Source of the DNA: Nitrospira sp.
Lineage (GTDB): Bacteria; Nitrospirota; Nitrospiria; Nitrospirales; Nitrospiraceae
Reading direction: 5' to 3'
DNA length: 63,851 bases
NCBI GenBank assembly: GCA_021323395.1
Contig: JAJONL010000007.1
Location: 1-63,851 of the forward strand
Shown here: one piece after another, positions 25,660 to 48,686 of the stretch
How the letters are laid out: the number at the start of each line of letters is the position of its first letter
How positions within the stretch are numbered: position 1 is the first letter of the stretch
The notes under the pieces: model-generated
What the model saw: only the letters and a program-made list of their open reading frames with translations
Told to the model about the DNA's origin: nothing
Databases searched by the model: none
Translations under genes and position numbers: made by a program

Positions 25660-27251
25660 TGCGATGTAACCGCGCCATGCCGACTGAGTTTCCCTTGCAG
25701 CCAGATGGCCATCTCGTCGCCTCATCCCACACTCGCTGGCTCTTCTTACTGATTATCGGCACGCTGCTGAGTATCGCAACGAATCAGAGTTTCGCAGAGA
25801 CCTCATCCGAGGCACCTACTCCACTTACCCAAGCTCTGCAGCTGATTTCCAGCGACCGCATGCTGGCGGACATCCGTGCATTAACGGGACCGGAATTCAA
25901 TGGACGCCAGACCGGAACCCCCGACGACCTGGCATCCGCCGAGTTTGTTCAAGGACGATTTCTAGATCTGCATGGGGAACGCTCCCCCGGCTCTGCCTCC
26001 GACACCTTGCACGATCGTCTCCCCGACCGAACCTGGCTCCAATCCGCGTCGGCCCGCCACACCACGATCGGTCAGGCTCCCCTCCTGCATCTCTTACTCG
26101 CCACTGGCTCTCCGCCGACCCTCATCGGCACCGATTACCTTCCCATTCTCGATTCTCCCTCTGCGGACCTCCAGGCACCTCTTGTGTTTGTGGGGTACGG
26201 AATTTCTGATCCCGCAGGCGGAATCGACGAATATGCAGGGATGGATGTGCGCAACAAAGTGGTTTTGTTTCTCCGGGGCAAACCGGAGCGATATGGCAAA
26301 TCGGTGTCCCATGCCGACAAGGTGCGCGCGGCCCAAGCACGCGGTGCCATCGGCTTCCTCACCGCTACCGGCCCCATCCTTAATGCCTATGAAACTCGTC
26401 GCGGCATCACAGGCCGGCCAAGCGCATTGTATGGGTTGATGGACTCACATGAAACAATTCCTGGAGCCTGGATCAGTACATCCCTGGCCTCCGCTACTCT
26501 TAATGCCCATCAGCCGGAAGGCGCTGACCGGCTACGCATCTTGCAGCAGCATATCAACGAGAGCCTCACCCCGCGATCGATCACACTTGATGTCGAAGCG
26601 GCCATGCAGTGGAGCAGCGTCCAACGAGACGGCACCCTTCACAACGTCATCTCCATCCTGTCGGGGCAGGACCCGGCCCATCAACATGAGACCATCGTGA
26701 TGGGGGCCCATCGAGATCATTTCGGCCGACAGGGTGGGCTGCTGTTTGCAGGCGCCGACGATAATGCTTCAGGCACGGCGGTGATCTTGGAGGTGGCGCG
26801 AGTGCTTGCCTCGACGGGGACCGGTCTCACACGATCAATCGTGCTGGTGTCGTTCAGCGGGGAAGAACAGGGGCTGCTGGGCTCTAAATTTTACGTCGCT
26901 CACCCGATCGTACCATTGCCCTCAACGGTTGCGATGATCAATGTAGATCACGCTGGAGTCGGGAACGGACGACTCACCGTTGGCGTGACCGGGCTGGAAA
27001 AAACCGTCGCTCAAGAAGCTGGACGGAAATCAGGGCTTGCCGAGCGCCTCGACATTTTTGGCTTCTTTCCCGGTGGAGATCATGTCCCCTTCAAAGAGGC
27101 CGGCATCCCCACCGTTACGATCGTGAGCGGCGGGACCCACCCGCATTTTCATCACCCCACCGATACCGTGGATTCGCTGAGTCCCGACATCCTCACAGCC
27201 GCTGCGCAGTACGTGCTTACGCTGGCCTGGCAACTCGCCGACACTCCCTAG
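25659..27251 (+). CDS. Exported M28-family zinc peptidase with PA-type insert
   Basis: A 530-residue peptidase. After a long polar N-region, a hydrophobic signal/anchor (WLFLLIIGTLLSIA) precedes the exported part. A PA-like insert spans roughly residues 150-300. The M28 dizinc site is visible: HRDHFG, GADDNASG, SFSGEEQGLLGS, NVDHAGVG and HFHHPTDTVDSL. It likely trims peptides in the periplasm. The start is placed at the overlapping ATG (25659); an ATG at 25677 is an alternative and neither has a good Shine-Dalgarno. Confidence 0.88.
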   Translation: MRCNRAMPTEFPLQPDGHLVASSHTRWLFLLIIGTLLSIATNQSFAETSSEAPTPLTQALQLISSDRMLADIRALTGPEFNGRQTGTPDDLASAEFVQGRFLDLHGERSPGSASDTLHDRLPDRTWLQSASARHTTIGQAPLLHLLLATGSPPTLIGTDYLPILDSPSADLQAPLVFVGYGISDPAGGIDEYAGMDVRNKVVLFLRGKPERYGKSVSHADKVRAAQARGAIGFLTATGPILNAYETRRGITGRPSALYGLMDSHETIPGAWISTSLASATLNAHQPEGADRLRILQQHINESLTPRSITLDVEAAMQWSSVQRDGTLHNVISILSGQDPAHQHETIVMGAHRDHFGRQGGLLFAGADDNASGTAVILEVARVLASTGTGLTRSIVLVSFSGEEQGLLGSKFYVAHPIVPLPSTVAMINVDHAGVGNGRLTVGVTGLEKTVAQEAGRKSGLAERLDIFGFFPGGDHVPFKEAGIPTVTIVSGGTHPHFHHPTDTVDSLSPDILTAAAQYVLTLAWQLADTP

Positions 27252-27375
27252 CAGGATGCGGGAAAAGTCCGCCAGCGGCGTTCTCGCATCGCTCAGAGGC
27301 TCCACGTACCTAAGGAGTACGCATCGCCTCTTCACTCGCTGCGGCCTTGCTGAACGGTCTTTTTGCGCATCCTGC
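27251..27375. repeat. Long intergenic hairpin repeat, copy 1
   Basis: A ~125-nt imperfect palindrome that begins at the M28 stop. Outer arms GCAGGATGCG...AAAAG and CTTTTTGCGCATCCTGC pair, and inner arms end in CGTAC/GTACG. The interior contains CTCGCTGCGGCCTTGCTG. Copy 2 at 48002-48125 shares the outer arms, the inner CGTAC arms and the GCAAGGCCGCAGCGAG motif. The size and intergenic siting suggest a dispersed MITE- or REP-like element. Confidence 0.75.
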
Positions 27376-27575
27376 GGCTGTTCTGATACCAACCGACCTT
27401 GCAAGCGGCTCGCGGCCTATTGTGCAAAAATCGATTTTTCCCGCAGCCTGATAGCGCCATGAAGCGCGGCAACTACCTCACTCTCTTCCGAGATACGTCG
27501 CCGCCGTGGTTGAGGCCGGCGAGTCCCGTTCAAACCACTGATTCGCCCCCAATGAGAACACGCGTCGGCAAACCC

Positions 27576-45207: not shown

Positions 45208-47923
45208 GTGGCACACCGTAGTCCACCAGATCGCACCGCGAATGACCTAATCGTCGAAGGCGCGCGCCAAAACAATCTCAAGAACATTTCGCTGCGGATA
45301 CCTCACGACAAGGTCACTGCGATCACCGGCCTCTCGGGATCGCAAAGTGAACCGTCCCGATGTCGATCGTATGGTCAACATTCGCCCCGCGATCGCCATC
45401 GAACAGAAAAATCCGATCCGCACGGCCCGCTCGACGGTCGGCACCGCCACGGAACTCGCTGATCTCCTGCGGCTCCTCTTCGCCAAAATCGGCAAGCCCG
45501 TCTGCCCGGATTGTAACCAGGAGGCACGGGGTTACCACCCTGGGTCGCTGGCCGAGGAGTTGCTGGCGCAATTTGCCGATGCGCGTGCGATGATTCTCTT
45601 CCCCATTAAGGACCTTGGTCCCGGTCACGACCGATCGCTGCTCGACTCACTCTTGAAACGCGGCTTCACCAGGCTGCGGTGCGGCGACGAACTGCTGGAT
45701 CTCCACGAGCAGGCCGTACTTCCGGAGATACGCGAATCTGGCATTCAGGTCGTGCTGGATCGACTCGTCCTCCGAGCGGACAACCGCCATCGGTTGATCG
45801 AAGCCATTGAGATGGCGTTTCAGGAAGCCGAGGGTGTCTGTCAGGTCGAGGTCATCGGACATGGGTTCCGGACCTACAGCACGCACTTTCGCTGTCAGGG
45901 TTGCGGACGGACCTTCGAGCCGTTGCGGCCGCTGTTGTTTTCGTTCAACCATCCGTTGGGCGCCTGTCCCGAGTGCAAAGGATTCGGGAATATCTTGCGT
46001 TACGACCAAGACCTGGTCATCCCGGATCGCAGCAAGTCGCTCGCCGGCGGCGTCATCGAGCCTTGGAGCAAGCCGGGCTCAGACTGGTGGCAGAAACAGA
46101 TGTTGTTGGGGATGAAAAAGTTGGGGGTCGATCTGACGGTTCCCTTTCAGGAACTTCCCACCGAGGTGCAGCAGCTGATGTGGGAAGGCAGCGACCAGGT
46201 GGAAGGCGTCCGGCAATACTTCGATTATTTGGAAACCAAACGCTACAAACTCCACGTGCGAGTGCTGCTGAGCCGGTACCGCAGCCCTGCCACCTGCCCG
46301 ACGTGCCAGGGGAGCCGACTGAAGCCGGCCGCGCGATTCGTCAAGCTGGCAGGACATGACTTTGTGCAGCTCAATGAACTTACTATTGAGTCGGCGGCCG
46401 CCTGGTTTCAGCGCCTGGCCCTGCCCGCGTTCGATGCAGAAATCGCCAAAGACATTCTGCGTCAGCTCCACGCCAAGCTGAATTTTCTGCTCCGCGTCGG
46501 GCTGAGCTATCTCACGCTCTCCCGCCAGACCAAAACACTCTCCGGGGGAGAAGCGCAGCGAATTGCGCTGGCCAATCAGCTCGGCTCTCGTTTGGTGGGC
46601 ACCCTCTACGTCTTGGATGAACCGACCATCGGGCTCCATGCGCGCGACACGGCCACCCTCGCCGGTATTCTCCGTGACCTGGCCGACCATGGCAATACCG
46701 TCGTCGTGGTGGAACATGATCCGATGATGATTCGCGCTGCCGATCACCTCGTCGAACTGGGTCCCGGTTCAGGAGAACGGGGTGGCCACATCGTCTGCGC
46801 CGCGCCGCGAGAGCAATTCATCGGCGATCCGAACTCCCTCACCGCCCGTTACTTGCGAGGCGAAGAGCGCATTCCCCTTCCCAAAAGCCGCCGTTCGGGC
46901 AACGGCAAAATCCTGAGCATCGCCGGCGCAGCGGAACACAATCTAAAGAACCTCGTGGTCAAGATTCCACTGCACATGTTGGTCTGTGTAACCGGCGTGT
47001 CCGGATCGGGGAAAAGCACACTCATCGAGAAGACATTGTACCGTGCCGCGGCCCGCGCCTTTCGGGTCGAATCCCTGCCGATGGGAAGGTTTCAGGCCAT
47101 CAAGGGGTTGGAACATGTGAAAGGGGTGCGCCTGATCGATCAGCAACCGATCGGCCGGACGCCCCGTTCGAACCCCATCACGTACTTAAAAGCGTTCGAT
47201 GAAATTCGTACTCTGTTTGCCTCCGAACGAGATGCCTTACGACAGGGTCTCACACCAGGGCACTTTTCGTTCAATGCTGCCGGAGGGCGCTGCGACCGGT
47301 GCGAGGGTAACGGCTACGAAAAATTGGAGATGTATTTCTTCGAAGACATTTATGCCACATGCGAACAGTGCAACGGCCGTCGATTCAAACCGGAGATCCT
47401 CGGCATTCGGTATCGCGGCAAAACCATCCACGATGTGCTGAGCCTGACGGTGACCGAAGCGCAGGGTTTCTTCTCCGGATCGCCCAAGCTGACCGAAAAG
47501 CTCTATCTACTGTCTTCGATCGGCCTGGGCTACCTGAAGCTGGGCCAAGCGGCTACGACTCTCTCAGGTGGCGAAGCCCAGCGGTTGAAGATCGCCGCCG
47601 AATTGAAAGATCCGTCGGCACATCATCTGCTCTATATTTTGGACGAGCCGACCACCGGCCTCCATCTCGACGATATCAAGAAGCTGCTGGCGGTCCTGCA
47701 CAAACTCGTGGACGCGGGCAATACCCTCATCGTCGTGGAACACAATCTGGATGTCATCAAGACGGCCGACTGGGTGATCGACCTCGGGCCGGAAGGAGGA
47801 GAAGCAGGCGGGTATATCATCGCCGAAGGACGACCCGAACAGGTGGCGAAGGTCGCCCAGTCCCACACAGGGAGGTTTCTGGCGAAGATGCTCAGCGGAG
47901 CCGCCCCACCTCGTGAAATGTGA
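45208..47923 (+). pseudogene. uvrA: uvrA paralogue lacking the first Walker A
   Basis: Translation from the GTG at 45208 (RBS AGGAAGGA) gives a normal UvrA N-terminus to ITGLSGS. The rest of Walker A and about 30 residues after it are absent, and the frame changes at about 45345. From 45347 an 858-codon frame runs to the end: both zinc modules, signature TLSGGEAQRI and Walker B of NBD-I, and a complete NBD-II with GVSGSGKSTL, LSGGEAQRLK and YILDEPTTGLH. NBD-I therefore cannot bind ATP normally. A GTG at 45347 could restart translation. Repair activity is unlikely; class appears UvrA2-like from the divergent insertion pattern. Confidence 0.85.
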
Positions 47924-48001
47924 AGCGTATCTCGTCAAAGGATCGGAGGGCCCCGCTTCTCGCGAATATGAACGAGGAAATATGAGCGACAACTATAGGT
48001 A

Positions 48002-48125
48002 CAGGATGTTAATAAGGCTCGTTCAGCAAGGCCGCAGCGAGCGAAACACCGAGGCGTACTTATTACGTACGTCGCAGGTGTTGAGCGAGGCGAGAACGCA
48101 GCTGGCGAGCCTTTTTAACATCCTG
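48002..48125. repeat. Long intergenic hairpin repeat, copy 2
   Basis: A 124-nt imperfect palindrome between the uvrA relic and yqgE. Outer arms CAGGATGTTAATAAGGCTCG and the complement of CGAGCCTTTTTAACATCCTG pair with one mismatch; inner arms end in GTAC/GTAC. Same family as 27251-27375. Confidence 0.75.
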
Positions 48126-48686
48126 TTAGTTGCAGGAGGGATCGAACGGCATATCTGCGTAATGCCGCGAGTCGTCGTCTAACGACAGGAGGATATCGGA
48201 CCAAATTTGCGTGGGGTTTTTCTCGAAGAGGATCGAGGGATCAGCCGGCAGGGTAATCCATGAACCGGTTTGCATCTCGGATTCCAATTGGCCCGGCCCC
48301 CATCCGGAATAGCCCAGGTAAGCGCGAAACGACTCTTTGTCCGGCTGCTGAGTCAGAATGCGCTCCATGATCTCCAAATCGCCTCCGAGGCAGACACCCT
48401 CAATCACCTGGTGCGAATTCTCAGGAGTGTGGTTGATCCGATAGAGCATCATCACTTGGTTGGTCTGAACCGGCCCGCCGGCATAGAGCACGTGCGGCTG
48501 TCCTTCCAAGATGGGAACCTGGGGCAATGCCTCCGAAATGGACATCCCCGTCGGGCGGTTGACGATGACCCCCAACGCGCCTTCCGGCCCATGCTCGCAC
48601 AGGAGCACCACCGCCTGCCGAAAGTTCGGGTCCTTTAACGCCGGCGCGGCCACTAACAGAATGCCTTTCCCGAGGGGAGTCATCAT
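48126..48686 (-). CDS. YqgE/AlgH family protein (UPF0301)
   Basis: A 186-residue protein with GKGILLVAAPALKDPNFRQAVVLLCEH at its N-terminus and GALGVIVNRPTGMSI, the standard YqgE/AlgH sequences. The family function is unresolved (linked to alginate regulation in Pseudomonas). The stop abuts hairpin repeat copy 2. An ATG one codon in is an equal start. Confidence 0.92.
   Translation of the reverse strand: MMTPLGKGILLVAAPALKDPNFRQAVVLLCEHGPEGALGVIVNRPTGMSISEALPQVPILEGQPHVLYAGGPVQTNQVMMLYRINHTPENSHQVIEGVCLGGDLEIMERILTQQPDKESFRAYLGYSGWGPGQLESEMQTGSWITLPADPSILFEKNPTQIWSDILLSLDDDSRHYADMPFDPSCN

Follow-up and report, generated by a model that had tools for sequence, protein, structure and literature searches.

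The window, a 63,851-nucleotide stretch of the genome of a Nitrospira sp., contains a long hairpin that starts exactly where a gene stops, which raises the question of what this hairpin is and how it came to lie there. An earlier note had described it as one of two diverged copies of a repeat and had offered three readings: a MITE, a terminator-like RNA, or a structured RNA. We conclude, with a probability of about 0.88, that it belongs to a short non-coding MITE of the IS5 type, which lands on YTAR targets that overlap stop codons and whose hairpin is kept paired by matching mutations.

The extent first given for the repeat, 27251-27375, is that of the hairpin alone. The whole of copy 1 is a complete 207-bp element at 27248-27454, in which a YTAR target, a terminal repeat, a hairpin of ~123 nt, a tail of ~60 bp, a second terminal repeat, and the target again follow one another (Table 1). 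The stop codon of the 546-aa ORF upstream is the TAG at 27249-27251 and the hairpin begins at the next base, 27252, just as the earlier note had it. This ORF, which may resemble M28 peptidases, is matched over its C-terminal 199 aa in 27 of the 28 other genomes of the genus. Within the hairpin, the arms CAGGATGCG (27252-27260) and CGCATCCTG (27366-27374) pair, and inner CGTAC/GTACG arms are present. The stem had been called near-perfect, which it is not throughout, as a G-G mismatch and internal loops are present. The predicted RNA fold of 27252-27375 has an energy of -58.2 kcal/mol (z -4.9), and 0 of 200 shuffles were equally stable.

The diverged second copy at 48.0 kb was recovered at 48001-48126, in the opposite orientation. 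It also adjoins a stop codon, the TAA of a 186-aa ORF that presumably resembles YqgE/AlgH proteins. A tail, a right terminal repeat, and a matched target copy were not recognised at copy 2. Its fold has a z of -8.0 on the plus strand and -6.9 on the minus strand. A covariance model whose training alignment included both window copies scored copy 1 at 144.9 bits and copy 2 at 116.3 bits in a search of the window; beyond these, the matches up to E 1 were the same places on the other strand.

Table 1. Features of the two copies in the window and of the ORFs that they adjoin
Feature	Position	Strand	Remark
Left target tetranucleotide CTAG (YTAR)	27248..27251	+	Family-wide YTAR duplication
Left terminal inverted repeat CAGGATGCGGGAAAA, doubling as the hairpin's outer arm on the 5' side	27252..27266	+	
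Long hairpin, conserved, the constant module of the family	27252..27374	+	Fold z -4.9; double changes in 27/39 pairs
Inner inverted arm CTTTTTGCGCATCCTG, in which the terminal repeat recurs imperfectly inside the element	27359..27374	+	Conservation about that of the terminal repeats
Variable tail	27376..27435	+	Least conserved part; sequence or length differs in several congener copies
Right terminal inverted repeat, minus-strand reading CAGGCTGCGGGAAAA	27436..27450	-	
Right target copy, now ATAG	27451..27454	+	One change from CTAG
Upstream ORF, 546 aa	25611..27251	+	Stop codon inside the target
Copy 2, hairpin only, diverged	48001..48126	-	Fold more stable than that of copy 1
Copy 2 target tetranucleotide CTAA	48126..48129	-	Holds the TAA stop codon, 48126-48128
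ORF reading into copy 2, 186 aa	48126..48686	-	Matches in 28/28 other genomes of the genus

Further copies, whose absence would have refuted the earlier note, were found in the source genome (an assembly of 3.5 Mb in 234 contigs) and its relatives. With copy 1 as the query, at least 50 places in the source genome were matched, E falling below 1e-17 for at least 40 (40 of 127 candidates scored). The 3'-arm pattern, which is asymmetric, has 28 bases, and allows up to 3 mismatches, gave 55 matches against 0 for its reversed control, and the terminal-repeat pattern gave 151 against 1. Covariance model R1 returned at least 75 matches (117 of 1714 candidates scored), which is not a copy count because a palindrome can match on both strands at each place, as happened at both of the window copies.

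The typical element has the order seen in copy 1: YTAR, left terminal repeat, hairpin (~123 nt), tail, right terminal repeat, and YTAR. In its hairpin, the left terminal repeat pairs with a similar inverted arm further in. In many aligned copies, the shared sequence continues beyond the hairpin, and the tail, which is variable in length and sequence, closes with the second terminal repeat, TTTTTCCGCAGCCTG, followed by YTAR. The commonest size is 207-209 bp, found in 41 of the 64 elements with identical flanking 4-mers; the others range from 131 to 364 bp. Five congener copies (L298, L300, L304, L305, and L309) have an altered tail and retain the right terminal repeat and matched target. At L091, L219, and L302, the inner arm itself forms the end of the element, with CTAG next to it.

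Other variants were seen in individual loci. On the minus strand of L024, a complete 203-bp element is nested in a longer member of the MITE family. The copies at L026, L031, and L033 of the source genome break off after GCTGCGGCC, within about three bases of one point, and have unlike sequence beyond it. At L041, L043, L024 (1512, minus), and L009 (2907, plus), the centre of the hairpin is swapped for another G+C-rich segment, which contains a small inverted repeat of its own.

Matches to the DNA of the element were present in all 29 genomes of the genus that were searched, the source genome included. One of them, G004, had only two matches, both weak, and 0 matches to the 3'-arm pattern; it has 14 DUF772 matches of equal score, yet the 3'-arm match of the MITE is absent. 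Over the phylum, the 3'-arm pattern was found in 89 of 295 genomes sampled. It occurs in 76 of the 79 genomes from the same family and in 13 of the 18 from one sister family; the 198 genomes from elsewhere in the phylum had 0. The top count was 126 (G228). The highest counts, 100-126 per genome (for example in G228, G170, and G100), come from another genus of the family, and one genome of the sister family (G145) had 52 matches. Among the matches listed, at least 80, the titles of the exact-match records name Nitrospira, Nitrospiraceae, Nitrospirae, or Nitrospirota. No match to the element was found in plasmid and phage collections.

The flanks of the elements argue for transposition. Terminal repeats that face each other at a distance of 100-450 bp were collected as pairs, with any four flanking bases allowed, and 75 of the 407 distinct pairs had YTAR on both sides. 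These were CTAG/CTAG in 37, CTAA/CTAA in 15, TTAG/TTAG in 9, and CTAG with CTAA or TTAG in 14, which makes the flanks identical in 61 of 75; CTAA was combined with TTAG in 0. Asymmetric tetranucleotides discriminate between a duplicated target and an extended inverted repeat. Since the flanks match and CTAA/TTAG mixtures are missing, the tetranucleotide is duplicated host sequence, and from these direct repeats of YTAR it follows that the element transposes. Most of the remaining facing pairs appear to join a left repeat to an inner arm, or to be decayed or accidental. The target evidence is imperfect in places: the right target of copy 1 is ATAG and not CTAG, copy 2 lacks a matched target, and the left YTAR is missing at 93 hairpin places (duplicates included) compared with 134 distinct places where it is present.

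Insertion sequences with the ends of the MITE were found in congeners. There are four: L100 and L117 (both 1,325 bp, G020), L105 (1,322 bp, G018), and L104 (1,324 bp, G001). The sequence CTAGCAGGCTGCGGAAAAA lies at both ends of L100/L117 (G020) and L105 (G018), and the left end of the MITE family differs from the IS ends by one mismatch in 19. The directly repeated targets are CTAG at L100, L105, and L117, and TTAG at L104, whose transposase frame contains a TGA. A further locus, L099 (G014), has one MITE-like end. The transposase of L100 matches the IS5-family model NF033581 (5e-85, 285.3 bits, cut-off 140) and PF01609 (50.4 bits, cut-off 23), and with 203 bits it falls under the cut-off of 270 for the IS1182 model NF033551. 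The MITE and the four insertion sequences have ~20 terminal bases in common per end, plus short matches at chance level, and the interior of the MITE is therefore not derived from these insertion sequences. Among the 29 genomes of the genus, a DUF772 transposase domain was found in 20. The L117 protein was matched in 11 at E up to 1e-40 and in five (G001, G002, G014, G018, and G020) at an identity of at least 77%. In the source assembly, no complete cognate insertion sequence was found: the L117 transposase had 0 matches at E up to 1e-40, and a DUF772 search gave one match, a remnant with other ends. Mobilisation in trans is therefore inferred from the relatives. The cognate insertion sequence may have been lost from the 234-contig assembly.

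Other transposases were considered as partners. An IS1182-type element was rejected as the main one, as the ends of the L067 remnant and of L114/L126 differ from those of the MITE. The L126 protein scores above the IS1182 cut-off, and the ends of L126 and L114 start with CTAGGAGCCTGTC. Insertion sequences of the L110 type (CAGGCTGTTGACAAA) have ends that are similar to those of the MITE and not identical. No terminal repeat was found at the PF01609 loci of the source genome (L044, L045, and L046). L024 (C51:3600-6100 of the source genome) carries, on the minus strand at ~810-1530, a second CTAG-flanked repeat with the end CTAGGAGYCTGTYCGAGTAAT, and the end of the broken DUF772 transposase locus of the same genome, L067, matches that repeat. 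Contigs C214, C101, C191, and C47 (L047-L050) end soon after an IS end, CTAGCAGGCTGTTGACAAA, and by eye the start of the L047 protein is like the L110 transposase. The insertion sequence at these contig ends is probably a multi-copy one that broke the assembly.

Empty sites were found at both window loci. The copy 1 gene was found in 27 relatives, and in 26 of these no terminal repeat lies within ~300 bp after the stop codon; the other (G028, L248) has a different element behind the gene, with TTAA on its left. Among the matches listed, the sequence flanking copy 1 is collinear with that in the relatives. At the copy 2 gene, the element is absent in G002 and G016, the relatives whose protein is most similar. 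A hairpin also lies at the stop codon of this gene in G020 (L291), and a decayed one in G007 (L286); G011 and G013 have weak remnants, and in G018 (L290) the sequence begins as the ends of a different IS5-type element do. Because of the target duplications, the insertion sequences with the same ends, and the empty copy 1 sites, the identification as an IS5-type MITE is well supported. Terminal repeats and many copies add to these, and of the three readings in the earlier note it is the MITE that stands.

The hairpin starts at the stop codon because YTAR contains TAA or TAG. When empty sites were rebuilt for 58 matched-target elements, 21 were at a stop codon, 27 were intergenic, and 10 were inside an ORF. 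The background consisted of the CTAG, CTAA, and TTAG sites outside elements, of which 198 were at a stop codon, 539 were intergenic, and 1255 were inside an ORF; it was taken from the studied loci with duplicates removed, and TTAA, absent among the 75 pairs, was omitted. Insertions inside ORFs were strongly depleted (p about 3e-12). Of the non-disruptive sites, 21/48 were at stop codons compared with 198/737 in the background, an about twofold enrichment (Fisher p 0.019) that is modest, with crude longest-ORF gene models and loci of one lineage behind it. No preference was seen for the orientation of the element to genes, as the hairpin side was read into in 49/134 cases and the tail side in 24/78 (p 0.45). 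A reading-frame control was noisy, with 62/268 other frames also open for 80 codons, and the comparison based on gene models was therefore relied on.

The hairpin is also the part of the element in which pairing has been maintained. The copy 1 structure has 39 pairs. When 91 hairpins were placed on it, 89.2% of cells were paired and 27 of the pairs had double changes. The compensatory changes whose absence would have counted against the earlier note thus exist: 216 cells were double-changed, compared with 62 in shuffles (sd 5.7; 0 of 500 as high), where the structure was taken from copy 1, itself among the rows, and the shuffles ignore relatedness. Slid structures gave 26-74 such cells. Without two wrongly included rows, the values were 89.4%, 26 pairs, and 214 cells. 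Covariation is clearest at a pair that reads U-A in 51 of the 91 hairpins and G-C in 37. RNAalifold alone predicted 21 pairs, 14 of them with double changes. Some cells are G-U, and pairs are broken at the end of helix 4 (the last pair, in 57 rows) and in helix 2 (in 26 and 34 rows).

The tail, by comparison, drifts. Mean identity among 26 matched-target elements not picked through the 3'-arm pattern was 0.96 for the left repeat, 0.93 for the hairpin, 0.97 for the inner arm, 0.80 for the tail, and 0.94 for the right repeat. Because terminal repeats served to find these elements and GTTCTCGC to orient them, the values for the ends and for part of the hairpin are too high. In the elements of the source genome alone (n=9), the identity of the tail was 0.73. 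The G-G mismatch is kept in 80/91 hairpins and the unpaired GTTCT loop (columns 36-40) is conserved at 97-100%, and therefore more than symmetry is kept. The earlier note had supposed base pairing under selection or a mobile element. The element is mobile and its hairpin covaries; covariation alone does not prove selection, and may come partly from shared ancestry or from template switching that homogenises the arms.

What the pairing is for can be read in several ways. The hairpin could be a structured RNA, or a signal for 3'-end processing, stabilisation, or ribosome pausing in host genes, with the transposon as a mere vehicle. REP sequences within 15 nt of a stop codon are reported to stall ribosomes in the accessible text of PMC12306157. 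Both window hairpins begin at a stop codon, copy 2 has the more stable fold after the loss of its tail, and the covariation is strong and is joined by a conserved loop and mismatch. Against this, a 3'-end role tied to orientation finds no echo in the orientation of the elements to genes, a search of the window against Rfam at the gathering score gave 0 matches, as did one of 27200-27500 that allowed E up to 1, and copy 1 is absent in all but one of the 27 relatives, in the sense given above. Selection at the level of the element, for moving or being tolerated, fits the data and explains the covariation equally well. A selected host function would also fit the covariation, and is unsupported by orientation, conservation of the copy 1 insertion, Rfam, and the terminator scan. 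We therefore regard the host signal as unlikely. It is similarly doubtful that IS5-type transposition has seeded a functional RNA module, with a selected structure, behind stop codons across two Nitrospirota families, where it would serve as a mobile 3'-UTR element next to the stop codon, be it an mRNA-end stabiliser, a terminator, or a ribosome-pausing stem.

Pairing could instead be a by-product. Template switching is a known mutational process for quasi-palindromes, and during replication it could equalise the arms of a palindrome with no selection. Such homogenisation should erase the G-G mismatch and the asymmetric loops, yet they persist, the mismatch at the frequency given above, and this makes the explanation improbable as well.

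The element could also carry a bidirectional transcription terminator, in line with the terminator-like RNA of the earlier note. Its GC-rich stem is flanked by a strongly conserved A-tract and T-tract (columns 18-21 with 124-127). In the predicted fold, however, the T-tract does not trail the stem but is paired within it to the A-tract, and a simple scan found 0 terminator-like sites in 27150-27560 and 47880-48250. With no orientation preference either, the terminator reading is quite unlikely. A promoter scan also gave 0. Movement as single-stranded DNA of a REP/REPIN by a tyrosine HUH transposase (RAYT), which palindromic, intergenic, many-copied sequence and one Y1_Tnp match in the source genome might suggest, is very improbable and was rejected, as it is contradicted by the 4-bp YTAR target duplications, a DDE-type insertion sequence has the same ends as the element, and the sole Y1_Tnp locus (2,980 bp) contains no match to the hairpin profile or to the terminal-repeat motif.

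For the IS5-type MITE, a mechanism can be proposed. A cognate IS5-type transposase would bind the terminal repeats and insert the element at YTAR. As YTAR holds TAA or TAG and would be restored at both ends, an insertion at a gene end of the form ...YTAA or ...YTAG would leave the protein unchanged. Most insertions inside genes would be purged, so that end-of-gene sites would become common. The hairpin would arise when the left terminal repeat pairs with the similar inner inverted arm, and compensatory change would maintain the pairing. Tentatively, and at somewhat less than even odds, the hairpin may be kept since it is useful to the element itself, either because an RNA stem at the 3' end lets genes tolerate the element behind them or because it aids transposition.

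The MITE family accounts for a common repeat of Nitrospira genomes. A target that contains TAA or TAG offers a testable mechanism by which mobile elements settle at gene ends and leave proteins unharmed. With tens of copies in many genomes of two families, the MITE also provides a large natural set for asking why such an element keeps a covarying hairpin. No description of the family was found in the literature covered by our search, outside which most subscription journals lie.

Several known systems resemble the Nitrospira MITE. REP sequences differ from it as shorter units that depend on an HUH transposase and are not known to duplicate their target. Like it, they are palindromes, and some lie close behind stop codons (PMC12306157). 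Nitrospira moscoviensis is in the table of genomes scanned for REPs in that paper, whose accessible text does not describe the element. A search of 20,395 E. coli records with the 208-bp element returned nothing at E 1e-3, which tells against similarity to enterobacterial ERIC. ERIC is also known as RU-1. In the accessible text of PMC2759123, RU-1 is 127 bp, and it is similar to the Nitrospira MITE in its length, intergenic position, and MITE-like character. IS5-family insertion sequences are another such system. The insertion sequences with the MITE's ends have a transposase of the NF033581 family, terminal repeats, and a 4-bp YTAR duplication, and YTAR is a reported IS5 target in the part of PMC10359306 available to us; the MITE differs from them in that it has no transposase and shares with the four just ~20 terminal bases. 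MITEs with IS5-family ends are already known, as BrickBuilt of Porphyromonas gingivalis is described as an IS5-derived MITE in the accessible text of PMC4596501. According to the same text, BrickBuilt is multi-copy, has ends like those of full-length IS5-family elements, and has a core of its own, a minisatellite, and the Nitrospira MITE shares this plan (PMC4596501). Unlike BrickBuilt, its core is a covarying hairpin with an internal arm that resembles the terminal repeat, its target is YTAR whereas the duplications of BrickBuilt vary (PMC4596501), and it is found in two bacterial families.
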